Assembly: GCA_016795505.1 (NCBI GenBank)
Contig: JAEUHH010000095.1
Span: 1 to 34,349 of the forward strand
Direction: 5' to 3'
DNA from: Verrucomicrobiales bacterium
GTDB taxonomy: Bacteria > Verrucomicrobiota > Verrucomicrobiia > Verrucomicrobiales > DEV007
Length of the DNA stretch: 34,349 bases
Under the pieces are notes generated by a model, which worked only from the letters and a program-made list of their open reading frames with translations, made no database searches and was not told the origin of the DNA. Position numbers and translations under genes: made by a program. Shown piece after piece: positions 4,556 to 33,847 of the stretch (position 1 is the first letter of the stretch; every line of letters starts with the position of its first letter).

Positions 4556-4594
4556 GCCGCACCTCCTTCCGGAAGGGCCGCCGCTCCGGTACAG

Positions 4595-4644: not shown

Positions 4645-4650
4645 GCGCGG

Positions 4651-4679
4651 ATTATCCGGGGCTACGCGATTATTTGCAA
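4651..4679 (-). promoter_or_regulatory. Sigma70-like promoter for the small RNA
   Basis: On the minus strand, a -35 TTGCAA (4679-4674, 4 of 6 consensus) and a -10 GATAAT (4656-4651, 5 of 6) are separated by exactly 17 bp. It lies in the non-coding interval between hsdM and the Abi_2 gene, directly before the hairpin-terminator unit. It could also supply read-through transcription of the Abi_2-hsdS-kinase part of the operon. Confidence 0.55.
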
Positions 4680-4716
4680 GAAAAAAAGACTTCTCCTCGG
4701 ATTGACGGCCAAAAGG

Positions 4717-4749
4717 CAACAGGGTTGCATCGCCAATCCAACCCTGTTG
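4717..4749. repeat. Perfect 11-bp inverted repeat downstream of hsdM
   Basis: CAACAGGGTTG (4717-4727) and CAACCCTGTTG (4739-4749) pair perfectly around an 11-nt loop. It sits 42 bp beyond the hsdM stop codon, upstream of the small-RNA promoter. No T-run follows on the minus strand within a few bases, so it is not a classical terminator; it may protect the hsdM mRNA end or be a protein-binding site. Confidence 0.5.
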
Positions 4750-4790
4750 GTTCGAAGCGGCTCCGTGATTCAAGATGGTGACGGATGCGC

Positions 4791-6311: not shown

Positions 6312-6378
6312 GCGCGGGTGAGATTTTGGGGAAAGTTAGCGTGCGGGGTGAGACATTCTCGGATTTCGGGCAGCGGCA

Positions 6379-7182: not shown

Positions 7183-7206
7183 GCAATTTGCGGGTCTGGG
7201 TGAGGG

Positions 7207-18048: not shown

Positions 18049-18590
18049 ACGGGGTTCTGAATGACGATGGGGCTGGAATCTGCCGCCAATTGCCGTTTCG
18101 ACTGGCCGTCAGGCTCCTTGGAAGGACTGCCCCGCCGAGGCACTCCTTCCGCATCGAACGGACGGCGGTTTCCACTCAACTTCCCACTTCCCGGCAGGAG
18201 CGAGCCGGATGCCATTCGCCCTCCAACGCCCGTAGAATATAGGGTTCCGGCCTCTCAAGCGCCCCTGAACGGCCTCATCGGCGCGAAAAAAGTGGAAAGC
18301 GGAAAAACGGACCTCTCATCGGATTTGGTTGAGGGTTGGACCCCAAGGGTACGGAGACGGTCGCGGAAATAGATTTCCTTTAATTTAACCAGGCAACTTG
18401 TTTCAATGGGCGACGAAGCAAAGGCTCATGAACCTGACACGGAGGCATACTGAGAAGATTTCCATGAGGGCACTTATCCGCGCTCAATCCCCTCGTGAGC
18501 CGCCTCAATCGCCCCGAGTCACTCGGGCCCGACCGGCGAACTCACCCTTGACTCCGGCGGAATGCTGCTGACAGTACCGACGAAGTTTCA
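18049..18590. other. Non-coding spacer between replication module and metal island
   Basis: About 540 bp with no convincing gene. A 103-codon plus-strand frame at 18061-18372 lacks protein-like composition. An AT-rich patch (18365-18390) contains the palindrome GGAAAT-AG-ATTTCC (18365-18378), followed by TTTAATTTAA. This is the only such AT-rich spot nearby and may be a terminator remnant or an insertion boundary. The promoter-like element of the first metal operon is at its right end. Confidence 0.5.
18548..18575 (+). promoter_or_regulatory. Putative promoter of metal-efflux operon 1
   Basis: TTGACT (18548-18553) followed after 16 bp by GACAGT (18570-18575, 3 of 6 consensus). The -10 is weak. 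The TTGAC element starts 43 bp before the first start codon, exactly as in operon 2, which gives the site more weight. Confidence 0.35.
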
Positions 18591-18980
18591 ATGAAACGTC
18601 TCTGGCAACTAGTAACCCTTCTGATGTTGGCACTGATCGTGCCTGCATCGATGTGCTGCCATTTGGTGGAAATGAGCTCCTCGGAAGCGAGCGGCTGCTG
18701 TCCCACTCACGAACAGGGTGGCGATGACGAGCGAAATCCGCTTTCCTGCCCGAGCGACTCGATTTCCCATAGCCAGGTTCCGGAGACAGTTTTCCTGCCT
18801 GCCGTCCTTCTTGCCGAGCACCTGATCCTCGTCCCAGGTGCGGCGAACCCAAAGGATTCCGGGGATCTGGATGTCGACCGGTCCTCCTTTCTGACCGAGG
18901 CACCTCCAGAGTTGACTCCGACCTGGGCCTTCGTCCATCGCGCTTCCCTCCCGGCCCGCGCCCCTTCGGCGCTGGCCTGA
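18591..18980 (+). CDS. Small secreted Cys/His protein, first gene of efflux operon 1
   Basis: A 129-residue exported protein with a signal peptide (MKRLWQLVTLLMLALIVPAS). Cysteine and histidine clusters follow: MCCHLVEM near the cleavage region and SGCCPTHEQGGDDE. The rest is Pro- and Ser-rich without a known domain. Small secreted proteins of this type often open czc-like operons and are thought to sense or buffer metal in the periplasm (CzcI-like). Its counterpart in operon 2 is at 24862. A 142-bp gap separates it from the TolC-like gene. Function is inferred from position and metal-ligand residues. Confidence 0.75.
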   Translation: MKRLWQLVTLLMLALIVPASMCCHLVEMSSSEASGCCPTHEQGGDDERNPLSCPSDSISHSQVPETVFLPAVLLAEHLILVPGAANPKDSGDLDVDRSSFLTEAPPELTPTWAFVHRASLPARAPSALA

Positions 18981-19122
18981 GACTCCCCGCCCTGTTGCTT
19001 GGATCCGTCCGGGTGGCTGTGAATGTGACGGAGTCCGCCTGCCGCCCAGCTCTCGGGTGGCCCACCCACGTCTCCGGTCGAGACGATTGGTTCATGTCGT
19101 CAGTCCAAAATTCACCGCCACC

Positions 19123-20397
19123 ATGCGAACTTCATTTTTTTCCATCACCCTCCTATCGGCCATCGCGACGCTTTCAGCGGCGGACGAGAAGCCGAAAGCC
19201 ATCTCTGTGTCCGACCTTGTTTCCCGTGCGCTCGAGGCCAACCCGGAGGTGCGCTTCTACGAAGCAGAAATCGCCCACGCAAGGGCGACACGGACCACGG
19301 CTGGCCGCCCATCGAATCCTGAACTGAGTCTGGAGATAGGAAGGAAACGCGTTTCCTCCTCCGATGCCCGCTCGAACGGTCTCGCCTTTTCGGCGGAGCT
19401 GGCCCAACCCTTGGAGTGGCCGGGGCGCCTGGGACTCCGCAAAGCCATTGCGAATCGGGACATCACTCTTGCCGAGCTGGGGCTCGAACGTTTCCGTTTC
19501 CACCTTGCCTCACGAGTGCGGGTGCTGGCCACCACCCTTGCCGCACAACAAGACATTTCGGCCGCTGCCGAAGAAGTGGCGGCTCGCCATTCAGCCCTTC
19601 GGGATGTTCTCGTCCAACGGGAACCGGCGGGCATCGCCCCCCAATTGGAAGTCGTCACGGTCGAGGCAGCCGCTCTGGTCGCGGAATCACGTGCTGCCAC
19701 CGCAGCGGTGGCCGTTCAGTCAGCGCTCCTCGAGTTGAACCAGCTGATGGGCCGGAGACCGGACTCGCCGATAGCGGTCGAGCGATCGTCATTCTCCCTC
19801 AAGGCGGTTCCTTCGCTGAACCAGCTGCTCTACGCTGCGATGGAGAATCACTATGACCTTCGCATCCTCCACGCGGAGCTCGAGCAACAGGGGTTCAAGG
19901 TGGAGCTGGCCAAAAACGAACGCTACCCCGCCATCGTCGTCGGACCTTTCGTGGAACGCGAGAACGGCCTCGAGGACGAAACGACCGGAGGCATCGGTAT
20001 TTCGCTGCCGTTACCTTTCTGGAAGTCGGGCAAGGCGGAGGTGACCGCGGCTGAAGCCCGCCTGACGCAGGCTCAGGCCAGCCTCGGCGTGGCGCAACGG
20101 GAGGTGGAACGTCAGGTGACGGAATCCACGCTGATGTTCAAAACCCAACAGTCGCGCGCCTCCCTCTGGAAAGGTGACGCGGTCGCCAAATTCGGAGAAG
20201 CGGCCGACTTGGCGGATCGACACTTCCGACTCGGAGCCGTTCCCATGGGCACCTTCGTGGAGATCCAGGACAAATACCTCGAAGCGGTCGAGGCCGTCAA
20301 CGAGGCCCGAGCCCAGACGCTCGAGGCGGCGCTCAAGCTAGAGGAACTCACCGGTGCCCCCGGGAGTCTCGTCCTTCTCAATTCATCGAAACCCTGA
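19123..20397 (+). CDS. TolC-family outer membrane channel of efflux operon 1
   Basis: A 424-residue outer membrane factor of the CzcC/CusC type. The start ATG at 19123 gives a clean signal peptide (MRTSFFSITLLSAIATLSAADE); an in-frame ATG 66 bp upstream would place a charged non-leader segment in front of it. Two outer-membrane-efflux repeats are seen as long amphipathic helices: SVSDLVSRALEANPEVRFYE with NPELSLEIG, and NQLLYAAMENHYDLRI with GISLPLPFWKSGKAEV. It would form the exit duct for the RND pump encoded two genes downstream. No lipobox is present. It is 12 bp from the next gene. Confidence 0.93.
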   Translation: MRTSFFSITLLSAIATLSAADEKPKAISVSDLVSRALEANPEVRFYEAEIAHARATRTTAGRPSNPELSLEIGRKRVSSSDARSNGLAFSAELAQPLEWPGRLGLRKAIANRDITLAELGLERFRFHLASRVRVLATTLAAQQDISAAAEEVAARHSALRDVLVQREPAGIAPQLEVVTVEAAALVAESRAATAAVAVQSALLELNQLMGRRPDSPIAVERSSFSLKAVPSLNQLLYAAMENHYDLRILHAELEQQGFKVELAKNERYPAIVVGPFVERENGLEDETTGGIGISLPLPFWKSGKAEVTAAEARLTQAQASLGVAQREVERQVTESTLMFKTQQSRASLWKGDAVAKFGEAADLADRHFRLGAVPMGTFVEIQDKYLEAVEAVNEARAQTLEAALKLEELTGAPGSLVLLNSSKP

Positions 20398-20409: not shown

Positions 20410-21108
20410 ATGAAACAAGCCCTACTCATTCTCATGCTGCCCATTGCCGCAGCGCTCAACTCCTGTAGCGACAGCGCCGCAAGTCCATCGCCCGAGACCG
20501 AATCCGCACCGGAGAACGGTGCCCAGTACAAAGAAGGCAAGGGTGTCACACTCACGCCACTCATGGCCCAATCCATCCAACTGAAAACGGCTGAAGTGCA
20601 GGATGAGGTGATCGCCCACGCGTATTCCGCCACCCTGCAAGCCACCCGGATCGGAAACGAGGCGAGCGGTTGGTTGACCGAAGAGCAGGCCTCCCAGATC
20701 CAGACCGGCATGATGGTGGAATTGGGCTCCAGCAAAGGACGCGTCCTGCGAATGGAAAAATCACCCTTCGTTGCTCTGGGTGACTACGAAGTCATCGTCA
20801 CCACAGACGAGACGCTCCAGCCGGGAGAGGCTTTGAACGCCACCTTCCGATTCCCCGCCGGGGATCCCGTGACATCGATTCCGAAATCGGCGCTTCTGAC
20901 CACGGCGGAGGGAACTTTCGTGTATGCGCAGAACGATGAATACTTCCTTCGCACTCCCGTCCAGGTCGGTGCCGTCAACGATGACCACGTCGAAATCATC
21001 GATGGACTCTATACGGGGGACGTGGTGGTCACGACACCGGTGATGTCGCTCTGGCTGGCAGAGCTTCAGATCTTGCGGGGAGGCAAGGCTTGTACCTGCG
21101 GTCACTGA
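20410..21108 (+). CDS. Short lipoprotein periplasmic adaptor of efflux operon 1
   Basis: A 232-residue lipoprotein: signal MKQALLILMLPIAAALNSC with Cys19 as the lipobox cysteine. It resembles only the second half of a membrane-fusion protein, the beta-barrel and membrane-proximal parts (SIPKSALLTTAEGTFVYAQN, then VQVGAVNDDHVEIIDGLYTGDVVVT). The lipoyl and alpha-hairpin parts are missing, so it is about half the usual length. It ends GGKACTCGH, a cysteine motif also found in the small proteins that close both operons. It sits between the channel and pump genes, 6 bp before the pump. It may be a reduced adaptor or work with another full-length adaptor. Confidence 0.85.
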   Translation: MKQALLILMLPIAAALNSCSDSAASPSPETESAPENGAQYKEGKGVTLTPLMAQSIQLKTAEVQDEVIAHAYSATLQATRIGNEASGWLTEEQASQIQTGMMVELGSSKGRVLRMEKSPFVALGDYEVIVTTDETLQPGEALNATFRFPAGDPVTSIPKSALLTTAEGTFVYAQNDEYFLRTPVQVGAVNDDHVEIIDGLYTGDVVVTTPVMSLWLAELQILRGGKACTCGH

Positions 21109-21114
21109 GACTCC

Positions 21115-24100
21115 ATGTTGACTTCCCTCATCACCCTCGCGATGCGGCAACGCGGTGCCGTGCTCCTCGGCATGCTGTTGCTCATCGCCTTCGGATTGTG
21201 GTCGGCACTGAACCTGCCCATCGATGCCGTACCCGACATCACCAATCCGCAGGTGCAGATCAACACGGCCGTCGATGCGCTTGCGCCGGAGGAGATCGAG
21301 AAGCTCGTGACCTTTCCCATCGAGAGCGAGATGGCAGGCCTGCCGCGAATGGTGGAGCTGCGTTCCCTGTCCAAGTTCGGCCTCTCCCAGGTAACGATGA
21401 CCTTTGAGGACGGGGTCGATCTCTATCTCACGCGCCAGCTCGTCACGGAACGTCTCCAAGGCGTCCTCGACGAACTGCCGCCGGAGGTGAGCCCCAAGCT
21501 CGCACCAGTCGCCACCGGGCTCGGCGAGATCTTTTATTACAGCCTGGACTATCTCGAAGATGCTCCGCACAAACCCGCGACCCGGGAGGAGCAGCTCATG
21601 GCTCTCGCGCAGATCCAGGAATACCAAGTGAAGCCCCTGCTCCGGGGCACGCCAGGGGTGGCGGAGGTGAACACGAGCGGCGGCTATCAGAAGCAGATCG
21701 TCATTCAACCCGATCCTCCCCGCCTCGCCGCGCGAGGTCTCTCACTTGATATGCTCGCCGAGATCGTGGAGCAGAACACACGCAACGCGGGTGGCGGATA
21801 CATCGAGATTGGCGGAGAGCAGCTCATCGTCCGCGCCACGAGCCGGGTAGACAACATTGACCAGATCCTCTCCATCCCCTTGAAATTTGCGGGTGCGGTG
21901 GAACCCGTCCTTCTCAGTGAGGTGGCCACCGTCACCATCGGCAGCGCCTTTCGGACCGGGGCTTCCACCGATGACGGCAAGGAAGCGATCATCGGCGCGA
22001 CGATCATGCTGGCCGGAGAGAATTCCCGGCTCGTGGCCGAGTCCGTGCGCGGCAAGTTGGTCGAGGTTCAGGAGAAACTGCCGCAGGGTGTCGTCATCAG
22101 GCCCCTGTACGACCGCAGCAATCTCGTCAGCCGCACCATCGCCACCGTCGAGAAGAACCTGACCGAGGGAGCGTTGCTCGTCGTCATCGTGCTCTTCGCC
22201 TTGCTCGGCAACTTCCGCGCCGCCTTCATCGTTGCACTGGTGATCCCGCTCTCCATGCTCTTCGCGATGACCGGGATGGTGCGATGGCACATCAGCGGCA
22301 ATCTCATGAGCCTGGGTGCGATTGACTTCGGTCTCATCATTGATGGGGCTGTGGTGATGGTGGAGAATATCGTGCGCCACCTCGGCGAGCGTCAGCACGC
22401 CCTAGGCCGCCGCCTCACCGTCAGTGAACGGACCGAGGAAGTGCTGAAATCCGCCAAGGAGGTAGCCAACCCGATGTTCTTCGGGGTCCTCATCATCACC
22501 GTCGTCTACGTGCCCATCCTCGCGCTCCAGGGCATCGAAGGAAAAATGTTCAAACCCATGGCCCTCGTCGTCATGCTCGCGCTCGGCGGTTCCCTCGTCC
22601 TCGCCGTCACGCTGATGCCCGTTCTGTGCTCCTACCTGCTCGGCGGCAAGATTCAGGAGAAGGACAACTGGCTGGTCACCCTGACAAAGCGACTCTACAC
22701 GCCGCTGCTCCGCTTCGGATTGCGCTTCCGCTTTGTCGTCGTCATCATCATGCTCGGGTTGTTCGGCTCGTCGATCTGGGTGAGTTCCCGACTCGGATCG
22801 GAGTTCATCCCCCAGCTTGACGAAGGCGATTTCGCCTTTCAACTCATCCGCAGCAGCAGCGCCGGTCTTTCCTCATCCCTGGAACTGCAAAAGCAGAGCG
22901 AAGCCATCATCCGCCGCGACTTTCCCGAGGTGAAGGAGATCTTCTCACGCATCGGCACCGCCGAGGTGGCGAGCGATCCGATGAATCCCAACGTCTCGGA
23001 CACCTACCTGATGCTCAATCCGCGCGACCAGTGGCGCGAGGAGGACGGCAGGACCATCACGAAGGAGCGGCTCGGCGAGATCATGCGCAAGACACTCCTC
23101 GATCAGGTGCCCGGTCAAAGCATCCTCGTCACCCAGCCCATCCAGATGCGATTCAACGAGATCATGGCCGGTGCCCGAGCCGACCTCGTCTGCAAGATCT
23201 TCGGTGACAGCTACGATGAACTGGAACGGCTCGCCGGGGAAGTGCGCACCGTCATCGGTACGATTCCGGGAGGAGGCGAGACCGAGTTCGACAGCATCGG
23301 CAAGAATCCCATGATCGAGATCCAGCCCGACCGCGAGGCCATGCGTCGGTTCAACGTCCACGCCGATGAGTTGAACTCCCTCATCGAAACCGCCCTGGCC
23401 GGGACCGAGGTCGGCATGCTCATCGAAGGAAACCGCCGCAGCCCCATCGTCGTCCGGCTCGCCGAGAATCATCGGGCAGACCTCGAGGGGCTCAAGCGAC
23501 TCGCCTTGCGCACCGATGATGGCGGGATGCTGTCGCTCGGGCAGGTGGCAAAGATCGTCCTCGTGCCCCAGCCGGTGCAGATCGCCCGAGAGAATACGCA
23601 ACGTCGCGTCAGCATCCTCATCAACGTCCGGGGCCGGGACACGGAAGGATTTGTCGAGGAAGCGACCCGGGAGATCCGCAACAAGGTCCAGTTTCCCGAC
23701 GGATATTTCTTCGAGTTTGGCGGCCAGTTCAAGAACTTGCAGGAGGCCAAGGCACGCCTCCTCATCGTCGTGCCTCTGGCGCTGGGCCTGATCTTCGTCC
23801 TCATCTTCCTCAGTTTCGGCTCCCTCAAACAGGCCGCTCTCATCTTCACCTGCGTCCCGCTCGCGGTCACGGGTGGGATCTTCGCCCTGTACGTGCGGGG
23901 AATGCCCTTCACCATCAGCGCGGCCGTCGGGTTCATCGCACTGAGTGGCATCGCCGTGCTGAATGGCATCATGCTCATCAGCTTCATCAACCAGCTCCGC
24001 AGCGAAGGGCGTGAAGTCCGCGAGGCCGTCGTCGAGGGCACCCTCACACGCCTGCGCCCCAAGCTCATGACCGCCCTGGTCGCCAGCCTTGGCTTCGTCC

Positions 24101-24261
24101 CCATGGCCATTGCGACCGGCGCCGGCGCGGAAGTCCAGCGCCCCATCGCCACCGTCGTCATCGGCGGCATCGTCACCTCCACTTTCCTCACCCTGCTCGT
24201 GGTGCCTGTGCTCTACGACTGGATCGAACGGAAATCCCAACCAAAAACCAATACCCTATGA
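21115..24261 (+). CDS. CzcA-type heavy-metal RND efflux pump, operon 1
   Basis: A 1048-residue inner membrane proton-driven metal transporter of the HME-RND family. The N-terminus is typical of CzcA (NLPIDAVPDITNPQVQIN, then EEIEKLVTFPIESEM and SLSKFGLSQVTM). The TM4 proton-relay motif is DFGLIIDGAVVMVEN, with Asp404, Asp410 and Glu417 matching the CzcA Asp402/Asp408/Glu415 set, so Zn/Co/Cd-type divalent cations are the likely cargo. Two large periplasmic loops and twelve hydrophobic segments are present. The last residues overlap the next ATG (ATGA). With the channel and adaptor upstream it forms a three-part efflux pump. Confidence 0.96.
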   Translation: MLTSLITLAMRQRGAVLLGMLLLIAFGLWSALNLPIDAVPDITNPQVQINTAVDALAPEEIEKLVTFPIESEMAGLPRMVELRSLSKFGLSQVTMTFEDGVDLYLTRQLVTERLQGVLDELPPEVSPKLAPVATGLGEIFYYSLDYLEDAPHKPATREEQLMALAQIQEYQVKPLLRGTPGVAEVNTSGGYQKQIVIQPDPPRLAARGLSLDMLAEIVEQNTRNAGGGYIEIGGEQLIVRATSRVDNIDQILSIPLKFAGAVEPVLLSEVATVTIGSAFRTGASTDDGKEAIIGATIMLAGENSRLVAESVRGKLVEVQEKLPQGVVIRPLYDRSNLVSRTIATVEKNLTEGALLVVIVLFALLGNFRAAFIVALVIPLSMLFAMTGMVRWHISGNLMSLGAIDFGLIIDGAVVMVENIVRHLGERQHALGRRLTVSERTEEVLKSAKEVANPMFFGVLIITVVYVPILALQGIEGKMFKPMALVVMLALGGSLVLAVTLMPVLCSYLLGGKIQEKDNWLVTLTKRLYTPLLRFGLRFRFVVVIIMLGLFGSSIWVSSRLGSEFIPQLDEGDFAFQLIRSSSAGLSSSLELQKQSEAIIRRDFPEVKEIFSRIGTAEVASDPMNPNVSDTYLMLNPRDQWREEDGRTITKERLGEIMRKTLLDQVPGQSILVTQPIQMRFNEIMAGARADLVCKIFGDSYDELERLAGEVRTVIGTIPGGGETEFDSIGKNPMIEIQPDREAMRRFNVHADELNSLIETALAGTEVGMLIEGNRRSPIVVRLAENHRADLEGLKRLALRTDDGGMLSLGQVAKIVLVPQPVQIARENTQRRVSILINVRGRDTEGFVEEATREIRNKVQFPDGYFFEFGGQFKNLQEAKARLLIVVPLALGLIFVLIFLSFGSLKQAALIFTCVPLAVTGGIFALYVRGMPFTISAAVGFIALSGIAVLNGIMLISFINQLRSEGREVREAVVEGTLTRLRPKLMTALVASLGFVPMAIATGAGAEVQRPIATVVIGGIVTSTFLTLLVVPVLYDWIERKSQPKTNTL

Positions 24262-24695
24262 AAACACTGCTGAATGTCCTCATCCTCGCCGCTCTGGCCA
24301 CCACCTCTGCCTTTGCCGATACCAAAGTCAAAGCAGGCCCACGCAAAGGTCTCATCCTCGAACTACCGGGCAAAAACGCCGAGTTCTTCGTTGAGAAAGA
24401 CCGCACCATCAGCATCGCCGTCTACGACGAAGCGATGAAGGCGCAGCCCGCAAGTACCGAAGTGATCACCGCCACCGCCGAGGCCCCGAGCGGCAAGACC
24501 AAGCTCGCCTTCGAGAAAAAAGGCGACCTCCTTGTCTCCACGACCCCACTGCCTGAAGGTGAAGGCTACCAGGTCGTCGTCCAGGCAAAGCCGACCCCGG
24601 ATGCGAAGACCAAGAACTTCCGCATCAAGCTCGCGCTCCACACCTGCGGCGGTCCCTGCGGCAACCCAGAATACGCCTGCACCTGCGACGAGTGA
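24258..24695 (+). CDS. Small periplasmic Cys-rich protein closing operon 1
   Basis: A 145-residue exported protein with signal peptide MKTLLNVLILAALATTSAFA. A beta-rich middle carries KAGPRKGLILELPGKNAEFF, and the Cys-rich tail is HTCGGPCGNPEYACTCDE. It is a paralogue of the protein at 31243, with which it shares the KAGP start, an x-EFFV strand, the PLPEGE/AIPEGE turn and the ACTC tail. Such tails can bind soft or borderline metals, so it is probably a periplasmic metal chaperone or buffer feeding the pump. Its ATG overlaps the pump stop, and a terminator-like hairpin follows 18 bp after its own stop. Confidence 0.88.
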   Translation: MKTLLNVLILAALATTSAFADTKVKAGPRKGLILELPGKNAEFFVEKDRTISIAVYDEAMKAQPASTEVITATAEAPSGKTKLAFEKKGDLLVSTTPLPEGEGYQVVVQAKPTPDAKTKNFRIKLALHTCGGPCGNPEYACTCDE

Positions 24696-24712
24696 AGATT
24701 CGCTCATGCGCT

Positions 24713-24745
24713 CCCTGTCCGAAGAACCGGGTTCTTCAGTCAGGG
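24713..24745. terminator. Hairpin between the two efflux operons
   Basis: CCCTG (24713) and CAGGG (24741) flank a near-perfect inner palindrome GAAGAACC-G-GGTTCTTC (24721-24737). A GC-rich stretch and a T-rich run (TTCTTTTATT) follow. This is a likely terminator of operon 1, or an operator-like palindrome. Confidence 0.55.
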
Positions 24746-24818
24746 GGCGGCTGCTTCTTTTATTGCCAGCGCCGTCTTCCTCCCCAACTCTCGATCGCCT
24801 CGATTAGTCGAAAACGCC

Positions 24819-24847
24819 TTGACACCAAGTTCCCAACAGCGAACATT
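24819..24847 (+). promoter_or_regulatory. Putative promoter of metal-efflux operon 2
   Basis: A perfect -35 TTGACA (24819-24824) and a weak -10 AACATT (24842-24847) are 17 bp apart. TTGACA begins 43 bp before the GTG start of the first gene, the same distance as in operon 1. The implied leader is only a few bases, consistent with SD-poor initiation. Confidence 0.45.
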
Positions 24848-24861
24848 CCACGTCTAAACTC

Positions 24862-25281
24862 GTGCGCAGGATACTACAGCTTCTACTCCTTCCCTTCCTA
24901 TTTGCCCTTTTGGCAGCAGGCGGAAAGGCGACGCTGTGTCAGGCGCTTTCATTGTCGGGCTTCGATGTCCACCATGACGCTGAGTGGATCGATGAGGATG
25001 GTTTCCACCTCACTCCTCTCTGCAGCAACGACCACGAAAGCGAAGAGCATGAGGAGGCGCCGTGTTCCGAATCTTGCGAGATTCGCCTTTCAGAAGCACC
25101 TTCACCGCTCCATGTGAAGGTGCCCGTCATCGCGGAAATTGCCTTTCTTCCGTCCCTTTTTGAAACCATGGAGCACCGGATGTTTCCGGTCACCAGTTTT
25201 AAGTCTCCGCCGAAAGTGGAGCCGCCCGCTTCTGCGGTTTCCTTGACCGACCCGACGTTCACGGGCCGTTATCTCGTTTGA
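24862..25281 (+). CDS. Small secreted Cys/His/acidic protein, first gene of efflux operon 2
   Basis: A 139-residue exported protein starting at GTG, with leader RRILQLLLLPFLFALLAAGG. The mature part holds likely metal ligands: HHDAEW, SNDHESEEHEEAPC and SESCEIRL, a dense His/Glu/Cys cluster. It corresponds by position to the protein at 18591 in operon 1, although direct similarity is low. It may sense or buffer metal before export. A 186-bp gap without a clear gene precedes the TolC-like gene. Confidence 0.7.
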   Translation: MRRILQLLLLPFLFALLAAGGKATLCQALSLSGFDVHHDAEWIDEDGFHLTPLCSNDHESEEHEEAPCSESCEIRLSEAPSPLHVKVPVIAEIAFLPSLFETMEHRMFPVTSFKSPPKVEPPASAVSLTDPTFTGRYLV

Positions 25282-25467
25282 TCTAACCCGCCCCGGCCCC
25301 TTCGCCGATGGCAGGCCAGGTTTGCCCTGGAAACACACTGCGTCTGCGGGCTCTCACGCGGTCTGCTTTCCCTGATTCCGGGGTTCGCGCGTCTCGTCAG
25401 ACCGGTGCCCGGGATCTGCCATCCCCGATCAAACGCCTCCCTGGTCTCTCCTGCTTCAATGATTACA

Positions 25468-26760
25468 ATGAAACGAAATTTTCTTTCGAACGCCTCAGTT
25501 ACAGCCGTCGTCTCGATGGTTACCTTCGTTCTGCACGCCGATGATCCGGTCGCTCTGACGCGCAACAAGGCAATCTCGCTCGCCTTCGCCAATAACCGGG
25601 ATCTGAAGATCGCCACCCTCGAGATCGAACGGGCCCAAACCCGTGTGCGATGGTCTGGTCGGCTCGACAATCCCGAGCTCGAGCTAAGCGTGAACGACGA
25701 CGGCGTCGGACTCGATGAAGGCGAGGGCAATTACGAGGTCGCCTTCTCGCAACGATTCCCCCTGACCGCGAAACTCAAACGCGAGACGGGTCTGCGCAAG
25801 TATCAGGTCATTCTCGCTGAAGCTGAGATTGCGGAGCGGCGGAGGGAGCTTGCCGGGCAAGTGGACAGGGCAATCGTCGAGTTGCTCTCCACCCGCGAAA
25901 AAATTCGCCTTGGTCGCGAGAGCGGGGCACTCAACAAGGAAATCCTCACCTTCCTGGAGGATAAGGCCAAACTCGGAGAGGTTTCGAAGTTGGACGTCAT
26001 TCAGGCCAATCTGAACGGGCGCACGCTCGCTCAGGAGGTTGACCTGCTTCTCACCCAGGAACAGCAGCAACGCCTTCTCTTGAACCAACTGATCGGCCTT
26101 GAGGCCACCACCGATCTGAGTCTCGAAGGCTCGCTCGACTTGCCGGGATCCCGACCCGCGGGAGTGGCCGATCTGGAGGCCATCCTCCAGCATCGACCCG
26201 ACTACATCCTCGCCCTCGCAAAGACTGACGAATCCCGTGCCGCCATCGCGCTCGAAGAGGCGAAGCGCTGGGAAGACATCGCACTGAAGGTGTTTGTCGA
26301 GGGTGAAAAGGCGATGGACGACCCGACCGGATTGGAGCGCAATACCTTCGCCGGCGTCGGGGTTTCGATCCCGCTTCCCTTCCGGAACCGCAACCAGAAC
26401 GGCATTGCCCAGGCGAAGATCGATGCGGAGGCTGCCACAAAAGGGGTCGATTCGGCCCAATTTCATATCCGAGCGGATTGCGAGGTGGCCTATCGACGCC
26501 GTCTCGACTCGTGGGAGCTTGCCCGCGAGGCCGGTGGTGAACTGCTCGCGCTCGCCGAAGAAAATCTCGCCGAGTTCCGCAAGGCCTACGAGCGCGGTGA
26601 AGCCACCCTCCTTCAGGTGCAGAACGCCCAGGAACAGGTGCTCAAACTTCAGTCAACCGCCACCACCTTTCTCTCCGACTACCACCTCGCCGAGGCCAGG
26701 GTCCGATACGTGACCGGCGCCTATCCCGGCATCAACCTTTCCCATCCTATCTCCAAATGA
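25468..26760 (+). CDS. TolC-family outer membrane channel of efflux operon 2
   Basis: A 430-residue CzcC/CusC-type outer membrane factor. The start is taken at 25468 (MKRNFLSNASVTAVVSM, signal-like, cleavage after HAD); an ATG nine bases upstream (MITMKRN) is equally possible. Helical repeats are visible: NKAISLAFANNRDLKIATLE, NPELELSVNDDG, and in the second half GVGVSIPLPFRNRNQNG with FRKAYERGEATLLQVQNAQE. The upstream frame is open but encodes an unlikely leader. It ends with an ATGA overlap onto the adaptor gene. It forms the outer duct of pump 2. Confidence 0.92.
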   Translation: MKRNFLSNASVTAVVSMVTFVLHADDPVALTRNKAISLAFANNRDLKIATLEIERAQTRVRWSGRLDNPELELSVNDDGVGLDEGEGNYEVAFSQRFPLTAKLKRETGLRKYQVILAEAEIAERRRELAGQVDRAIVELLSTREKIRLGRESGALNKEILTFLEDKAKLGEVSKLDVIQANLNGRTLAQEVDLLLTQEQQQRLLLNQLIGLEATTDLSLEGSLDLPGSRPAGVADLEAILQHRPDYILALAKTDESRAAIALEEAKRWEDIALKVFVEGEKAMDDPTGLERNTFAGVGVSIPLPFRNRNQNGIAQAKIDAEAATKGVDSAQFHIRADCEVAYRRRLDSWELAREAGGELLALAEENLAEFRKAYERGEATLLQVQNAQEQVLKLQSTATTFLSDYHLAEARVRYVTGAYPGINLSHPISK

Positions 26761-27998
26761 ACGCCAATCACCTGATACCAAATCCACACCCAGGGAGCCC
26801 GTTCACCGTGCGTCCTGTCCGGTGCCTGACGATTCTTGCGAATGTGTTCCTCTTGAATCTCTGCGGCTCCCTCATCTCTCCATTGATCGCAGCCGACCCA
26901 GGCAACATCATCGTCCTGGATGAGGCCGGCGTGAACAATCTGCGCATCGAAACCGTCGAGGTCGAGGAGACCGTGTTCGAGGCGACGATCTTCTCCCTCG
27001 GGCGGATCGAAGTCATTCCCGCAAACGTCGCCGCCGTGAGCAGTCGGATCTCTGGCCGTGTCGTGGACTTGCTGGTTTCCTCCGGCGACATGGTGAAGGC
27101 GGGTGACGCAGTCGCGAAAATTGAAAGTCGCCAACCCGGCGATCCGCCTCCCGTGATCTCCCTCACGGCTCCGCTCGGCGGCCTCGTCACTCACGTCGAT
27201 GTCCGCTTGGGCGACCCTGTCGATCCGGAGAATCCTCTTCTCGAGATCACCAATCTTGACGAAGTCTACGCCATCGCCCGCGTCCCCGAGCATCAGGCCG
27301 GATTGATGCCTTCCGCCACGAAGGCGCACATCAAGGTGGCGGCCCTGCCAAACGAAGAATTCGAGGGTGAGCTGCTCCGCTTCGGCACCAGCGCGGACAA
27401 GGAGAGCGGCACGATCGACGCGATCTTCCGGCTGAAGAATCCCGGAGCTCTTCTCAGAGCCGAGATGCGCGCGGAATTCTCCATCGTGATGGGCAGGAGG
27501 GAGAACGTGATTTCCATCCCGCGGGCCGCCTTGCAAGGCGAGGCCTCAAATCGATTTGTCTACGTGAAGGATTTTGATCTGCCCAATGCCTTCGTGAAAA
27601 CCCAAGTGCAGGTCGGCGAGATGAACGATCGTTTCGCCGAAATTACGAGCGGTCTGTTTCCTGCAGACGAAGTCGTCACCCAGGGTGCCTACTCGCTATC
27701 CTTCGCCGGTGCCAGCAGTGTTTCCCTGAAGGAGGCTCTCGACGCCGCCCACGGCCACGAGCACGCCGCCGATGGCAGCGAACTGACACCGGAAAAGGCT
27801 GCCGAGATGGAGGCCGCGAAGGGCGGCAAGGGATCGGAGCACGGTCACGATGAGGGCGGCGTCAGCACCCTCTGGAAATACGCCTCGATCGCCCTCTTCG
27901 TCTTGCTTGTGATTTCCCTCATCACAAAGAGACGCCCCGCCGTCCCTGAGGAAGAAACCACCGCCCCGGCGGAAACGCTCACCAAGGAGGCCCACTAG
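26757..27998 (+). CDS. Full-length periplasmic adaptor with C-terminal membrane anchor, operon 2
   Basis: A 413-residue membrane-fusion protein of the CzcB type. It has an N-terminal hydrophobic leader (about residues 24-46), then the lipoyl/biotinyl halves (SSRISGRVVDLLVSSGDMVKAGD and PLGGLVTHVDVRLGDPVDP). The beta-barrel region includes VISIPRAALQGEASNRFVYV. Unusually it continues into a His-rich stretch (HGHEHAADG, SEHGHDEGG) and ends in a transmembrane helix LWKYASIALFVLLVISLIT with a positive, cytoplasm-like tail. It has no long coiled hairpin. The tail could fix the adaptor beside the pump and collect metal. Spacing to the pump gene is 2 bp. Confidence 0.9.
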   Translation: MNANHLIPNPHPGSPFTVRPVRCLTILANVFLLNLCGSLISPLIAADPGNIIVLDEAGVNNLRIETVEVEETVFEATIFSLGRIEVIPANVAAVSSRISGRVVDLLVSSGDMVKAGDAVAKIESRQPGDPPPVISLTAPLGGLVTHVDVRLGDPVDPENPLLEITNLDEVYAIARVPEHQAGLMPSATKAHIKVAALPNEEFEGELLRFGTSADKESGTIDAIFRLKNPGALLRAEMRAEFSIVMGRRENVISIPRAALQGEASNRFVYVKDFDLPNAFVKTQVQVGEMNDRFAEITSGLFPADEVVTQGAYSLSFAGASSVSLKEALDAAHGHEHAADGSELTPEKAAEMEAAKGGKGSEHGHDEGGVSTLWKYASIALFVLLVISLITKRRPAVPEEETTAPAETLTKEAH

Positions 27999-28000
27999 TC

Positions 28001-31000
28001 ATGCTCAACAAAATGATTCACTGGGCGCTCGCCAGCCGTGCGCTCGTCGTCGGCGTCTCGCTCATCCTCATGGTGATGGGCCTGAAGACGGCCACGGAAC
28101 TACCCGTGGAGGTCTTGCCCGACCTGACCAAACCGACCGTCATCATTCTGACGGAGGCTCCCGGCCTCGCACCGGAAGAGGTCGAGGCACGTGTCACCCA
28201 ACCTCTCGAGAGCGCCCTCATGGGCGTGGCGGGTCTCACCCGTCTGCGTTCCAACTCCGATGTCGCGCTTTCTCTCGTCTATGCCGAGTTCGGTTGGGAC
28301 ACCGACATCTACAAGGCCCGCATGCTCGTTCAGGAACGGATGCAAGGGGTGCGCGAGCAATTGCCCGAAGGCGTGCAGCCCTTCATGACTCCGGTGGCAT
28401 CGCTCATGGGCGAAATCCTCCTCGTGGGAGTGCGCTCCACCATCAAGGAGGGCGAGGCGGGATACCTCCCGCCGCGGGAGATCCGTTCCCTCGCCGACTG
28501 GACGATCAAGCGCCGTCTCCAGAGTGTTTCCGGGATCGCCGAGATCCTCAACATGGGCGGCGGGGTGAAGCAGATCGAAATCCAGCCCGACCCGTACAAG
28601 ATGCAGTCGAACAACGTCTCTTTCGACGAACTCGAAGAAGCCGTCACCGAGGCCGCGAGCACCACCACCGGGGGATTCCTGAACACCGGCCCCACCGAGA
28701 TCATGGTGCGCAATCTCGCGATGACGGTGGAACTGGATGACATCGCCAAAACCATCATCAAAGAGATCAACGACCGGCCCATCGCCATCTCCGACGTGGC
28801 CAACGTGACTTGGGGAGTGGAGCCGATGCGCGGCGACGCCACCGTGAGTCAGGCTCCCGAGAAGTCGCCCACCTACGGTGTCATCATGTCGATCACGAAG
28901 GCTCCGGGATTTGACACACGAAAGCTTACCGAAGAGATCAAGGTCGCCCTGGATGAGCTCGCCCCGACTTTCCCGAAGGGAGTCGAAACAACCCTTTTGT
29001 TCCAGCAGAAGGACTTCATCGACAATGCCATCGGCAATCTCACCGAGGCGATTCGCGACGGCGCCATCATGGTCACGATTGTCCTTTTCCTGTTTCTTCT
29101 CAACTTTCGGACCACCTTCATCACTCTCATGGCAATGCCCCTGTCGTTCGGCATCACGATGCTGGTCTTCAAGGGATTCGATATCAGCGTGAACTCGATG
29201 ACCCTCGGCGGCCTCGCCGTGGCCATCGGCATGGTCGTCGACGACGCCATCGTCGATGTCGAGAACGTCTTCCGACGTCTCCGGGAAAACGCCTCCCTGC
29301 CGCATCCTCACCCGCGCCTGCAGGTGATTGCCAGGGCCTCGGGTGAGGTGCGAAATTCCATCCTCTACGCCACCGTTCTTATCATTCTTGTCTTCCTCCC
29401 CCTCCTTGGCTTGACCGGTGTCGAAGGCAAGCTCTTCGCCCCCATCGCCATCGCCACGATCATCTCGATGGTGGCGTCCTTCATCGTTTCGCTTACCGCG
29501 ATTCCCGTACTTTGCTCGATTCTGCTCAACCCCAAACAAGGGCACGAGCACAAGGACGGCTTCCTCACCCGGGGAATGAAGTGGCTTCTCGAAAACACGC
29601 TGCTCCGATTCGGCCTCGGCCAGCCCTACCTCATGCTCGGCCTTGTCCTGATGATCGTCGTGGCGGCCTTCTCGCTCTATCCAAAGATGAACAAGGATTT
29701 CCTCCCCAAGTTCCAGGAAGAGACCGCGCTCGTCGCCGCCACCACCGCCCCGGGGACTTCGTTGGACGAGATGAACAAAATCTCGGATGTGATCGAGCAA
29801 CAGATTCTCTCCGTCCCGGAGGTGCGCAAGGTGGGCCGCCGCCTCGGCCGGGCCGAGCGGGGCGATCACGTCGTTCCGGTCTCCACCGCAGAGTTTGATG
29901 TAGACTTCATGGAAGCCGAGGGCGGGCATGGGACCGAAGGGCGGAGCCGCAAGGAGGTCCTCGACGACATCGCCGCGAAAATCAAAACGGTGCCCGGCGT
30001 TTTTGCCGTCGTCAGCGGACCGCTCGCCGACCGCATCGGCCACATGATGAGCGGAGTCTCGGCGCCGGTTGCGGTAAAGATCTTCGGCCCCGACCTCGAC
30101 AAGCTCCGCCAGATCGGCATAGAGGTCCAGACCGTCGCCAAGGGCATCCCCGGATTTGAGGACTGCAAATTGGATCAGACCTCCTCCATCCCCCAGCTCC
30201 GTATCGAGGCAGATCGCGACCGCGCCCGGGCCTACGGGATCTCCCCCGGCAGACTCAATGAACAGCTCTCGGCCCTCATCGGAGGAAAAGAGGTCGCGGA
30301 GCTGCGGGAGGGCCAGCGAGCCGTGAATCTCGTCATCCGGCTGCCGATCGAGTGGCGGGATTCTCCTGACAAGATCGCCAAACTTCCCGTCGAGACGCGC
30401 GCCGGAAAGCGGATCCCGCTCTCCCTCGTTGCCGATGTGCGCGAGGCGAAGGGACCAAACGTCATCTTTCGCGAAAACAGCCAGCGCCGCTTCGCCCTCG
30501 CCATCAAACCCACCGTCCGCGATGTTTCCAATCTCGTCGTGAGGCTTCAGGAAGAGGTGAAGGAAAAGGTCACCCTGCCCGAAGGCTATTTCATCACCTA
30601 CGAGGGAGAATTCGCTGCTCAGAAGGAGGCCACGGAGCGCATCGCCATCTTCACTCTTGTCGTTCTCGCCGTCATCGCCTTCCTCCTCTACGGCTACTTC
30701 CGGACGCCCTTCTTCGCCGTCCAGGTGCTTTTCGATATTCCACTGGCACTCGTGGGCGGGCTCGTTTTTACCTATTTCAAGCTGAACAACATCAGCATCG
30801 CCACGCTCGTGGGGTTCATCGCCGTCGCCGGTGTCGCCGCGAGGAACAGCATCATGCTCATCAGCCACTACCTGCATCTGATGCAGCACGAGGGCGAAGG
30901 CTTCACGAAACAGATGGTCATTCGCGGGACCAAGGAGCGCCTCGTGCCCGTCCTCATGACCGCGCTTGCCGCCGGCATCGGGCTCATCCCTCTCGTCCTC

Positions 31001-31171
31001 GCGGCCGAACAACCGGGAAAAGAGATTCTCCATCCGGTCGCCGTCGTCATCGTCGGTGGATTGATCACGAGCACCCTTCTCGGGCTCGGCGTGACGCCAA
31101 CGGTCTTTTTCACCTTCGGACGCAAGGCCGCCGATACCGCAATTCAGAATGAAGCGCCAGCCTCACATTAA
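28001..31171 (+). CDS. Heavy-metal-type RND efflux pump, operon 2
   Basis: A 1056-residue RND transporter. The N-terminus is HME-like (ATELPVEVLPDLTKPTVIIL, APEEVEARVTQPLESAL, VAYxF-type porter loops). TM4 carries GMVVDDAIVDVEN (Asp414, Asp415, Glu421), an Asp-Asp pair more like the HAE drug pumps than the CzcA pattern in pump 1. Cargo specificity is therefore likely to differ from that of operon 1. It pairs with the upstream adaptor and channel. After its stop a short GCCCG/CGGGC inverted repeat (31181-31197) and an A-rich leader precede the next gene, which may have separate translation. Confidence 0.95.
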   Translation: MLNKMIHWALASRALVVGVSLILMVMGLKTATELPVEVLPDLTKPTVIILTEAPGLAPEEVEARVTQPLESALMGVAGLTRLRSNSDVALSLVYAEFGWDTDIYKARMLVQERMQGVREQLPEGVQPFMTPVASLMGEILLVGVRSTIKEGEAGYLPPREIRSLADWTIKRRLQSVSGIAEILNMGGGVKQIEIQPDPYKMQSNNVSFDELEEAVTEAASTTTGGFLNTGPTEIMVRNLAMTVELDDIAKTIIKEINDRPIAISDVANVTWGVEPMRGDATVSQAPEKSPTYGVIMSITKAPGFDTRKLTEEIKVALDELAPTFPKGVETTLLFQQKDFIDNAIGNLTEAIRDGAIMVTIVLFLFLLNFRTTFITLMAMPLSFGITMLVFKGFDISVNSMTLGGLAVAIGMVVDDAIVDVENVFRRLRENASLPHPHPRLQVIARASGEVRNSILYATVLIILVFLPLLGLTGVEGKLFAPIAIATIISMVASFIVSLTAIPVLCSILLNPKQGHEHKDGFLTRGMKWLLENTLLRFGLGQPYLMLGLVLMIVVAAFSLYPKMNKDFLPKFQEETALVAATTAPGTSLDEMNKISDVIEQQILSVPEVRKVGRRLGRAERGDHVVPVSTAEFDVDFMEAEGGHGTEGRSRKEVLDDIAAKIKTVPGVFAVVSGPLADRIGHMMSGVSAPVAVKIFGPDLDKLRQIGIEVQTVAKGIPGFEDCKLDQTSSIPQLRIEADRDRARAYGISPGRLNEQLSALIGGKEVAELREGQRAVNLVIRLPIEWRDSPDKIAKLPVETRAGKRIPLSLVADVREAKGPNVIFRENSQRRFALAIKPTVRDVSNLVVRLQEEVKEKVTLPEGYFITYEGEFAAQKEATERIAIFTLVVLAVIAFLLYGYFRTPFFAVQVLFDIPLALVGGLVFTYFKLNNISIATLVGFIAVAGVAARNSIMLISHYLHLMQHEGEGFTKQMVIRGTKERLVPVLMTALAAGIGLIPLVLAAEQPGKEILHPVAVVIVGGLITSTLLGLGVTPTVFFTFGRKAADTAIQNEAPASH

Positions 31172-31242
31172 TCTCTCCCTGCCCGCGTCTAACGGGCGTC
31201 AGTCAGACAAAAACAAAAAACAAACCAAACGAAAGTAAGAAT

Positions 31243-31734
31243 ATGAAAACGACCCTCCTCACCCTCGCCATCGCCGCTCTCGGCCTGGCCATCAACGTCA
31301 GCGCCGCTGACAAGGAAAAACACGACCACGACCATGAGATCAAAGCCGGCCCTACCGGCGGCAAGCTCATCACCGAGGTCGAACCCCACGTCGAGTTCTT
31401 CGTGAACAAGGACAAAATGGTCGAGATCCGCTTCATCGACGATGACATGAAAGTCGTCGCCCCCGGCGAGCAAGTCATCAGTGTCACCCTCGGCGACCGC
31501 TCCGCTCCCACCAAGCTGAGCTTCACCAAGGAAGGCAACATGCTGATCTCCGACAAGGCCATCCCCGAAGGTGAAAACCTTCCCACGGTCGTGCAGATCA
31601 AGACCACCCCGGACGCCAAGGCCGTGACGGAGAAGTTCAACCTGAACCTCGAACAGTGCCCGACCTGCAAAAACCAGGAGTATGCCTGCACCTGCGCTCA
31701 CGGCGAAGAGGAAGAAACGAAGAAAAAAGAGTAA
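31243..31734 (+). CDS. Small periplasmic His/Cys-rich protein closing operon 2
   Basis: A 163-residue exported protein (leader MKTTLLTLAIAALGLAINVSA). The mature N-terminus is metal-ligand rich (DKEKHDHDHEIKAGP). A beta-sandwich-like body is followed by the tail QCPTCKNQEYACTCAHGEEE. It is paralogous to the 145-aa protein of operon 1, especially in the KAGP start, the central strands and the YACTC tail. It probably binds metal in the periplasm and passes it to the pump. The A-rich leader before the ATG has no Shine-Dalgarno sequence. Confidence 0.9.
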   Translation: MKTTLLTLAIAALGLAINVSAADKEKHDHDHEIKAGPTGGKLITEVEPHVEFFVNKDKMVEIRFIDDDMKVVAPGEQVISVTLGDRSAPTKLSFTKEGNMLISDKAIPEGENLPTVVQIKTTPDAKAVTEKFNLNLEQCPTCKNQEYACTCAHGEEEETKKKE

Positions 31735-31876: not shown

Positions 31877-33847
31877 ATGAGCACGCAAGACCACACCTTA
31901 TCTAGTTCCAAATCCTGCGGTTCCTGCGAGCACGGACATGATGACAGCCCGCTTCCACAGGGTGCCCTCGTCATTGCCTCGGGGGTTCTCACCGGCATCG
32001 GCCTGATCGTGCACTGGACCCAAGCAGGCCCAGACTGGCTCACCATCGCTGCCTTCGCCGCTGCGACTTTCGCGGGAGGTTCGCTCGTCTTTCCTTCCGC
32101 CATTGGAGCCTTGAGGAAACTCCGGCTCGACATCAACGTCCTGATGACCGTCGCGGTCATCGGAGCTTGGATTATCGGAGAATATGCCGAAGCCGCCAGC
32201 GTCGTCTTCCTCTTCGCCCTCTCGGAACTGCTCGAATCCTGGGCGGCGGGACGCGCCCGGCGAGCCGTCGATGCCTTGCTGAAGCTCTCTCCACCCACCG
32301 CCCTCGTCCGCTTGTCCGATGGATCCGAAAAAGAAACCCCCGTCGAGGAGGTCGAAGTCGGGACCGAAATCCTGATCAAAAGCGGCAGTCGCATCCCACT
32401 CGATGGCGAAGTCATCACGGGAAGCTCCAGCGTCAATCAGGCCCCCATCACCGGGGAGTCCCTGCCCGTGGAGAAACAGGCCGGTGACTCCGTTTTCGCG
32501 GGCACGGTGAATGGCGAGGGCTCCCTCGTCGTCCGGGTTTCAAAACCGGCCGCCTCCTCGACCCTGGCACGCATCATCCAGCTCGTGGGTGAGGCCGAGG
32601 AAAACAAGCCACCGACCCAGCGCTTCGTCGACCGGTTCGCCGCGATCTACACTCCTGCGGTTTTCGTCCTCGCGATCCTCGTGGCGCTGGTCCCGCCGCT
32701 GATGTTCGGACAACCGTGGCTGTTCTGGATCTACCGGTCACTCGTCTTGCTGGTCATCGCCTGTCCCTGCGCTCTCGTCATCGCGACACCTGTCAGCATT
32801 GTCTCCGGCCTCACCGCCCTCGCTCGTCGTGGAGTCCTCGTGAAGGGCGGGGTCCATCTCGAGGCGGTGGGAAAACTCCGAGCTCTCGCCGTCGACAAGA
32901 CCGGCACCATCACCCAGGGAACCCCGAAGGTTGTCGGGATCATTTCACAATCCGCCCTCTCCGAGGACGAAATTCTCGCGAGGGCGGCCGCCATCAACAG
33001 CCATTCCGAACACCCCATCGCCATCGCCATCACCGAGGCGGCGCGGGCGAAGGGCCTGGTGATTCCGTCCATCGAGAACTACGTCTCCATCACCGGGCGC
33101 GGTGCCACGGCGACGATAGAGGGTCATCCCCATTTCATCGGAAACCACAAATTGACGCATGAGACCGGTCTCTGCGGTCCCGGGATCGAAGGCATTCTCT
33201 CCTCCATCGAGGAAAAGGGGCAGTCCCTCGCCGTGATTGGCCACGCGCCGCACGATGGATGTGACGGAGAGATCCTCGGCATCATCGCCATCGCCGACAC
33301 ACTGAGGCCCGAAGTGGTCGAGGCACTCCGCGAGATCCACGCTGCCGGAATCGAGGAAGTCATCATGCTCAGCGGCGACAACCAGCGAACCGCCTCCACC
33401 ATCGCCAAACAAGCGGGCATCGACGAAGCTCTCGGAGATCTCCTGCCGGAGCAAAAGGTCGATCACGTCCGTCGACTAGTGGAAAAATATCGTCACGTCG
33501 GTATGATCGGTGACGGAGTAAACGACGCGCCCGCCCTCGCCATCGCCACGGTTGGATTTGCGATGGGTGCCATCGGCAGCGACACAGCCATTGAGACTGC
33601 CGACATCGCCTTGATGAAGGACGACCTGCGCAAGGTCGCCGAAACGGTTCGCATCGGGCGACGCACTGTCCGCATCATTCAGTTCAACGTGGCCTTTGCC
33701 CTCTCCATCAAGGCGCTGTTCCTCATCCTCGCCTTCCTGGATATGGCAGGACTTTGGCTCGCCATTCTCGCGGACACGGGAGCGACCCTGCTGGTGATTC
33801 TGAATTCCCTTCGTCTTCTTGGAGGAGTGGCTCAGGACGAGGCGTGA
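31877..33847 (+). CDS. P1B-type heavy-metal-translocating ATPase (Zn/Cd/Pb group)
   Basis: A 656-residue inner membrane ATPase that exports soft or divalent metal to the periplasm. There is no full N-terminal metal-binding domain, only a short CGSCEHGHDD motif. Core motifs are TGES in the actuator domain, CPC (Cys296-Pro297-Cys298) in the transport site, phosphorylated Asp340 in DKTGTIT, SEHPIAIA in the nucleotide domain and GDGVNDAPALA. The last helix contains ADTGATLLVILNSL; its Asp is the residue typical of Zn/Cd/Pb (ZntA/CadA) pumps. With the RND pumps it gives a cytoplasm-to-periplasm-to-outside route. Its own promoter is not obvious. Confidence 0.95.
   Translation: MSTQDHTLSSSKSCGSCEHGHDDSPLPQGALVIASGVLTGIGLIVHWTQAGPDWLTIAAFAAATFAGGSLVFPSAIGALRKLRLDINVLMTVAVIGAWIIGEYAEAASVVFLFALSELLESWAAGRARRAVDALLKLSPPTALVRLSDGSEKETPVEEVEVGTEILIKSGSRIPLDGEVITGSSSVNQAPITGESLPVEKQAGDSVFAGTVNGEGSLVVRVSKPAASSTLARIIQLVGEAEENKPPTQRFVDRFAAIYTPAVFVLAILVALVPPLMFGQPWLFWIYRSLVLLVIACPCALVIATPVSIVSGLTALARRGVLVKGGVHLEAVGKLRALAVDKTGTITQGTPKVVGIISQSALSEDEILARAAAINSHSEHPIAIAITEAARAKGLVIPSIENYVSITGRGATATIEGHPHFIGNHKLTHETGLCGPGIEGILSSIEEKGQSLAVIGHAPHDGCDGEILGIIAIADTLRPEVVEALREIHAAGIEEVIMLSGDNQRTASTIAKQAGIDEALGDLLPEQKVDHVRRLVEKYRHVGMIGDGVNDAPALAIATVGFAMGAIGSDTAIETADIALMKDDLRKVAETVRIGRRTVRIIQFNVAFALSIKALFLILAFLDMAGLWLAILADTGATLLVILNSLRLLGGVAQDEA

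Follow-up and report, generated by a model that had tools for sequence, protein, structure and literature searches.

A Putative Selenocysteine Arm on Short RND Adaptors and a Four-Cysteine Secreted Protein in Metal-Efflux Cassettes of Verrucomicrobiota

Two heavy-metal efflux cassettes lie head to tail in a 34,349-nucleotide contig of a Verrucomicrobiales bacterium (JAEUHH010000095.1, assembly GCA_016795505.1; hereafter the window, meaning the whole stretch of DNA analyzed). Each comprises four genes: a TolC-like outer membrane factor, an adaptor, a resistance-nodulation-division (RND) permease and a small secreted protein. Three of the products, namely the short lipoprotein adaptor of cassette 1 (20410–21108, 232 aa, lipobox LNSC; all features are on the plus strand unless stated otherwise), small secreted protein A (24258–24695, 145 aa) and its homolog small secreted protein B (31243–31734, 163 aa), carry the tetrapeptide ACTC near their C-termini. 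An earlier interpretation made from the letters of this DNA alone (the sequence-only reading) proposed that this motif is a common Cys-x-Cys tag on an adaptor and its soluble partners, and that it marks a metal hand-off device. The locus thus raises two questions: is the recurrence of the motif meaningful, and, if so, what chemistry do its cysteines support?

Translation bears out the presence of ACTC near the C-terminus of all three proteins, and the span 21075–31706 takes in all three occurrences. The adaptor ends in ILRGGKACTCGH, i.e., in the arm GGKACTCGH (21079–21105), whose first Cys codon is TGT, while small protein A ends in HTCGGPCGNPEYACTCDE and small protein B in QCPTCKNQEYACTCAHGEEEETKKKE (quoted elsewhere as CPTCKNQEYACTCAHGEEEETKKKE). 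The description of a two-cysteine motif was correct as to ACTC but too narrow for the small proteins, as their tails have four cysteines in the pattern C-x2/3-C...EYACTC (CGGPCGNPEYACTCDE at 24645–24692 in A and CPTCKNQEYACTC at 31657–31695 in B). Likewise, the claim of two unrelated protein types holds for the adaptor versus the small proteins, with A and B being homologous (42% identity). At the DNA level, the genome contains GCSTGYACSTGC 10 times and its reversed control 7 times, a difference so slight that the word count is uninformative; it is the conservation among homologs that argues against a chance motif. Indeed, the motif is kept in homologous operons, beside RND metal pumps. Its contexts are nevertheless dissimilar: in the adaptor it forms a disordered C-x-C-[GA]-H arm, whereas in the small proteins it belongs to a four-Cys knuckle that is predicted to be ordered. 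Hence, common descent of the similarity is unlikely.

Among 44 distinct short adaptors, the arm has the form C-x-C in 33, nearly always with G or A next and then H or Q, and the form H-[CS]-H in five distant homologs. In three relatives of the window gene (but not in the window gene itself), each from a different genus of the window's family (loci L129, L130 and L219 of genomes G006, G012 and G497, respectively), the first arm Cys codon is an in-frame TGA. Read as selenocysteine (Sec or U), this codon falls exactly on the conserved cysteine in the alignment. The three arms read ..GRA-TGA-SCAH-stop, with the codons AGC TGC GCC CAC and a stop following the TGA. From these comparisons, we consider it very probable that the Sec-armed adaptors constitute a new selenoprotein family. 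The replacement of Cys by Sec at this one position would be strong evidence that the arm residue is chemically active. The plainest alternative is that the TGA is an ordinary stop, with the SCAH codons being decaying remnants and no selenoprotein being made; an adaptor shortened in this manner would still be complete save for the arm. However, the codons after the TGA are letter-identical in the three genera while synonymous sites have diverged: all 13 of the 13 nucleotides following it are the same in the three loci, whereas the upstream third codon positions are only 40–63% identical.

A hairpin follows the TGA after 20 nt in all three loci, with a GGUC loop and a stem of 5–8 bp. The hairpin region is 75–80% identical among the three, as against 15–50% for the sequence beyond it. 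The stems (GAGUGCC/GGCACUC, GGUGCC/GGCACC and AUGCC/GGCAU) show paired, covarying changes, which, being in non-coding sequence, speak against an ordinary stop. The published rules for the bacterial selenocysteine insertion sequence (SECIS) call for a loop of 3–9 nt with a G in the first two positions, a stem of 4–16 bp, a spacing of 16–37 nt and an energy at or below -7.5 kcal/mol (PMC13188914). All three hairpins satisfy the loop, stem and spacing rules, and two of the three also satisfy the energy rule (-11.2 kcal/mol in G006 and -14.0 kcal/mol in G497). The third counts against selenocysteine insertion: the G012 hairpin alone has an energy of -6.9 kcal/mol, above the limit, and its 50-nt stretch prefers another fold. 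Also on the side of an ordinary stop, plain folding of the 50-nt stretches was no better than that of shuffled sequences for two of the three loci. Accordingly, the case for a SECIS element is built on conservation, covariation, loop and spacing, and not on energy. An Rfam scan of the three loci returned chance-level hits and no SECIS match, the coverage of bacterial SECIS elements by Rfam not having been gauged. The combined pattern of TGA and hairpin occurs in exactly three of the 75 family genomes, namely the above three, and the reversed control gave none. A looser pattern, GGNVRRGCNTGANSNTGYGSNCAYTR, recovers the three known loci and is absent from the 384 genomes sampled across the class, only two of which are from the window's family. 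In-frame TGA codons were also flagged in the adaptors of G470 and G486, but these lie outside the arm, which has a cysteine in both cases.

The three genomes also carry genes for Sec decoding. All three genomes code for tRNA-Sec (confirmed by ARAGORN) and SelD, which is again at odds with an ordinary stop, and SelB was found over the cut-off in G006 and G012. In favor of the ordinary stop, no SelB over the cut-off was found in the 550-contig assembly of G497. SelD is itself Sec-coding, with a SECIS, in G006 and G497; the SelD SECIS shares the core CCGGUCGG with the arm hairpin in G006 and has GGUC in the loop region in G497. Among 40 short-adaptor genomes tested for SelB, seven decode Sec, six judged by SelB and G497 by tRNA-Sec together with the Sec-containing SelD. 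All three TGA adaptors fall among these seven (~0.004 by simple counting, with the three being one clade and hence not an independent test). In the tree, that clade of Sec forms is supported (97/88) and has long branches, a further point against an ordinary stop, and a Cys form from G522, which also decodes Sec, lies beside it (100/100; bootstrap not fully settled). On balance, it is very improbable that the TGA merely terminates these adaptors. In the window genome, no SelB over the cut-off and no SelD were found, and the best match to the tRNA-Sec model (48.9 bits) is at the level of Cys-only genomes; accordingly, the arm there has a cysteine.

Two side observations concern SelD in this order. 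In the Verrucomicrobiales loci L261–L266, SelD is itself a selenoprotein, with an in-frame TGA near the protein start and a SECIS with GGUC or GGUU. In L267 (G012:C192:27856-28779), unlike in its relatives, SelD lies in a 757-aa open frame lacking a TGA, and is possibly a fusion protein.

Pump adaptors are a class of proteins absent from the latest selenoprotein inventory consulted: the 2026 compilation of 119 prokaryotic selenoprotein families includes several metal transporters but no RND adaptor (PMC13188914). The deep-Sep paper and the reviews searched have no HlyD or RND term, and the Sec forms of the adaptor match none of the NCBIfam selenoprotein models. Our literature search, which did not reach subscription journals and preprints, returned no paper title on selenocysteine in RND adaptors or membrane fusion proteins.

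We then turn to the partner of the arm. The small secreted protein is present in 63 of 96 close genomes and, in a phylum-wide set of 387 genomes, in 46; it lies directly 3' of the RND permease in nearly all loci read with flanks. These counts pertain to fetched loci, as opposed to an exhaustive census, and several of the genomes are fragmented metagenome-assembled genomes (MAGs). The small protein is thus a standing fourth member of the RND metal-pump cassettes of Verrucomicrobiota. Of about 121 distinct members compared, 114 retain its tail, C-x2/3-C...[YW]-x-C-x-C, 103 of them with C-x2-C and 11 with C-x3-C; nine further rows lacking CxC were left out of this total as they were judged to be overlapping frames or other proteins. 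Within the C-x2-C group, an alanine precedes CxC in 95 of the 103 members and a threonine separates the cysteines in 57. L034 and L141 have lost the last three cysteines and end in a His-rich tail (CPTSGHPEYALGDHSHDHDHKH). Neither A nor B matches any Pfam or NCBIfam family over the cut-off, and 42 homologs yielded just scattered weak matches against Pfam. The sole match of the small-family profile to sequences of solved structures, an RNA polymerase subunit (E 0.002), was rejected as unlikely. Re-reading the loci with TGA as Sec revealed no Sec form of the small protein: every TGA lies beyond the frame end and none at a tail cysteine.

AlphaFold2 predicts small protein B to be a β-sandwich (predicted local distance difference test, pLDDT, of 96–98 in the core and 84.5 on average) with an ordered tail (about 94–96 up to residue 150). 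Its top structural match is the silver-bound form of CrdA from Helicobacter pylori (Z 8.9, root-mean-square deviation 3.0, 94 residues, 12% identity), followed by a DUF4426 protein and then by the copper proteins FetP, P19 and FtrA. With a Z near 9 being barely above the level of a common fold, we take this as a likeness of the predicted structure to CrdA and not as proof of kinship. The small proteins lack a Met-rich motif, leaving the four cysteines as the candidate site. The ordered state of the tail would suit a purely structural role, in which the four cysteines form a stabilizing zinc knuckle or disulfides, the adaptor CxC is a separate matter, the shared ACTC is coincidental and there is no hand-off. 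The unlike sequence context of the motif in the adaptor and the small protein, as well as its absence from the long adaptor of cassette 2, point the same way. However, the adaptor arm, being disordered and at the extreme end of the protein, is a poor place for a structural site. Moreover, the loss of the tail in L167–L171 leaves the remainder of the small protein intact, and hence the tail is not needed for folding. We accordingly regard a purely structural role of the tails as improbable.

The adaptor that bears the arm is itself unusual. By profile it is an RND adaptor fragment, matching TIGR01730 over positions 230–313 only, i.e., with its C-terminal part (E 8.2e-14). Its model consists of a barrel and a membrane-proximal domain, with neither the hairpin nor the lipoyl domain, and structurally matches CusB in the CusBA complex (Z 14.7), ZneB (13.9) and BesA (13.1). 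The arm follows the last helix of the membrane-proximal domain and is disordered in the model. That the lipoyl and hairpin domains are apparently lacking is supported by the Sec homologs, whose profile match starts only at positions 153–157 of 322. The long adaptor of cassette 2 (26757–27998, TIGR01730 129.6 bits), in contrast, is full-length, matches the lipoyl and barrel-sandwich profiles, and ends in ETLTKEAH with no Cys arm. Both permeases belong to the CusA/CzcA heavy-metal efflux (HME) family (TIGR00914 over the cut-off; 1231 bits for permease 1 at 21115–24261 and 755.8 bits for permease 2 at 28001–31171), with adaptor and TolC-like genes adjacent. Permease 1 is ZneA/CzcA-like, with ZneA (4k0e, E 5.3e-195) as its best relative of solved structure. 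Cassette 1 is, as modeled, a variant of the HME-RND tripartite system whose adaptor lacks the full set of domains.

How might arm and tail work together? We infer that the tails are soft-metal ligands, and a relay of soft metal between the Cys4 tail of the small protein and the adaptor arm appears, from the sequences, the fairly likely account. The small protein would act as a periplasmic metallochaperone whose Cys4 tail captures an ion, divalent or soft. By thiol exchange, the ion would then pass to the adaptor of cassette 1 at its mobile arm, be this Cys-x-Cys or Sec-x-Cys. Hanging from the membrane-proximal domain, the one nearest the permease, the arm would sit by the cleft of the RND porter, from which the ion would be expelled. 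In the species with the Sec arm, ordinary termination at the UGA would yield the same adaptor minus the arm, and arm formation would therefore depend on the selenium supply. This opens the more tentative prospect of a selenium-gated pump, in which a Sec-x-Cys or Cys-x-Cys arm would take soft metal from an operon-encoded Cys4 metallochaperone and a shortage of selenium would leave the pump armless.

Several lines of evidence favor the relay. First, the operon position of the small protein and the tails are conserved. Second, the arm is disordered and emerges after the last helix of the membrane-proximal domain. Third, the folds are near those of CusB/ZneB and CrdA. Further, the observed swaps, namely Cys to Sec, C-x-C to H-x-H, and the loss of CxC with gain of a His-rich tail in L141, are of the ligand type and fit a metal-binding role of the tails. 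To this extent, the hand-off proposed by the sequence-only reading finds support; its generality does not, because cassette 2 pairs a small protein that has the four-Cys tail with a long adaptor lacking the Cys arm. The common tag therefore suits cassette 1 but cannot be taken as a general rule.

That same long adaptor heads the points that weigh against the relay, as it implies that pairing with the small protein does not require a tag on the adaptor. Next, the tail is wholly absent in L107/L167, L113 and L168–L171, an Akkermansia-side lineage (family f2) in which the small protein ends in ...LTLHLH or ...FELHLH. This lineage keeps the cassette of TolC, adaptor, RND permease and small protein, and thus presents a natural deletion of the tail. 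Permease 1, moreover, looks from its sequence to be of the zinc/cadmium type: its fourth transmembrane helix carries DFG..D..EN, residues of divalent-metal pumps, and the positions aligned with the methionine triad of CusA (which we take to be numbered 573, 623 and 672) are not Met. Finally, the role for which Sec is best known is redox chemistry.

This last point leads to the main alternative, a thiol/selenol redox device, in which arm and tail would cycle between dithiol and disulfide (or selenylsulfide), and reduce metal ions or periplasmic disulfides, or sense oxidant or metal to gate the pump. A flexible C-terminal Cys pair does resemble redox tails, and Sec replaces the first arm cysteine only. 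Most selenoproteins are, in addition, oxidoreductases or have redox-type motifs (PMC13188914). However, neither the small protein nor the short adaptor has a thioredoxin-like fold match, all these genes belong to operons of metal pumps, and the genes of the cassettes have no gene for a redox partner among them. The H-x-H of the distant adaptors would keep metal ligation but not redox chemistry. It is these H-x-H arms, together with the His-rich tail that L141 has in place of CxC, that lead us to weigh metal ligation over redox chemistry and to deem a redox device unlikely.

Cassette 1 is preceded by a small secreted Cys/His-containing open reading frame (ORF; 18591–18980), known from its translation and position only, the latter presumably being that of CzcI-like leader genes, and begins with the TolC-like gene (19057–20397, start codon uncertain; Pfam OEP PF02321, E 7.9e-31). 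The start of small protein A overlaps the stop codon of permease 1 (ATGA), which suggests translational coupling. Ahead of cassette 2 lies a small secreted His/Cys-containing ORF (24862–25281) with homologs beside cassette 2 in L047, L117, L120, L125, L152, L153 and L156; its relatives recur in front of cassette 2 in a number of genomes, frequently with an FTGRYLV-like motif at the end. Cassette 2 opens with its own TolC-like gene (25405–26760; PF02321, E 1.2e-33), and 3' of it is a Zn/Cd/Pb-type P1B ATPase (31877–33847; TIGR01525 and TIGR01512 over the cut-off). The named relatives of the window sequence are mostly Verrucomicrobiales MAGs.

The segment 18526–34209 that encloses both cassettes is 87–99.9% identical at the DNA level to its counterparts in a different genus (L043, L044, L045, L117, L119, L120 and L222). 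Its left end lies near 18526–18545 in several genomes, and at its right end, 34209, the others agree mutually while the window departs. From this comparison, the segment looks like a recently moved genomic island. Other contigs of the same genome hold a second copy of cassette 1 (G000:C62:1-10386, L118), whose adaptor is 90% identical, and another permease of the cassette-2 kind with its small protein (G000:C120:1-8126, L137), 62% identical. On the minus strand, the window also has type I restriction-modification genes at 1400–7782 (HsdM at 4794–6311 and HsdS-like genes at 2328–4361 and 7210–7782), adjoined by a gene with a protein kinase domain (1400–2293).

Comparison with known systems places these cassettes among the tripartite metal pumps while setting them apart in their cysteine-bearing parts. 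Like CzcCBA and ZneCAB, they group the genes for TolC, the adaptor and the HME-RND permease into a single operon, and permease 1 is closest to ZneA; they differ in the fixed fourth gene for a Cys4-tailed protein, and in the short adaptor lacking the lipoyl and hairpin domains and carrying a C-x-C or Sec-x-C arm. If our account is true, the metal pumps of Verrucomicrobiota would gain a defined fourth component, as yet unnamed and belonging to no Pfam or NCBIfam family. H. pylori offers a parallel in which the gene for a small periplasmic protein likewise accompanies those of a Czc-type pump: CrdA, a periplasmic copper-binding protein and the top structural match here, is encoded with CrdB-CzcB-CzcA (PMC9182242). 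CrdA, however, binds copper via methionines, with no Cys or His (PMC9182242), as against the C-terminal Cys4 tail that is the candidate site in the small protein. The relay proposal has precedents in the CusF–CusB relay and in SilB, an adaptor with an extra C-terminal metal-binding domain and a small periplasmic chaperone as partner (PMC4446572). SilB has a whole CusF-like domain with Met-based sites, whereas here the element is a nine-residue Cys or Sec arm, which gives the pump adaptor a candidate functional site open to testing. If true, the relay would extend the CusF/CusB type of hand-off from Met/His copper sites to thiol/selenol sites in zinc/cadmium-type pumps. BesA of Borrelia burgdorferi, the third structural match, is likewise an RND adaptor lacking the α-hairpin, but it keeps the lipoyl domain (PMC3807786), which the short adaptor apparently lacks too, and it is the latter that has the arm. 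Finally, the SO_0444 family Cu/Zn efflux transporter has a selenoprotein form (NF033936, UxC) and is thus another metal exporter with Sec-x-Cys (PMC13188914), though from a protein family different from that of the RND adaptors described here.

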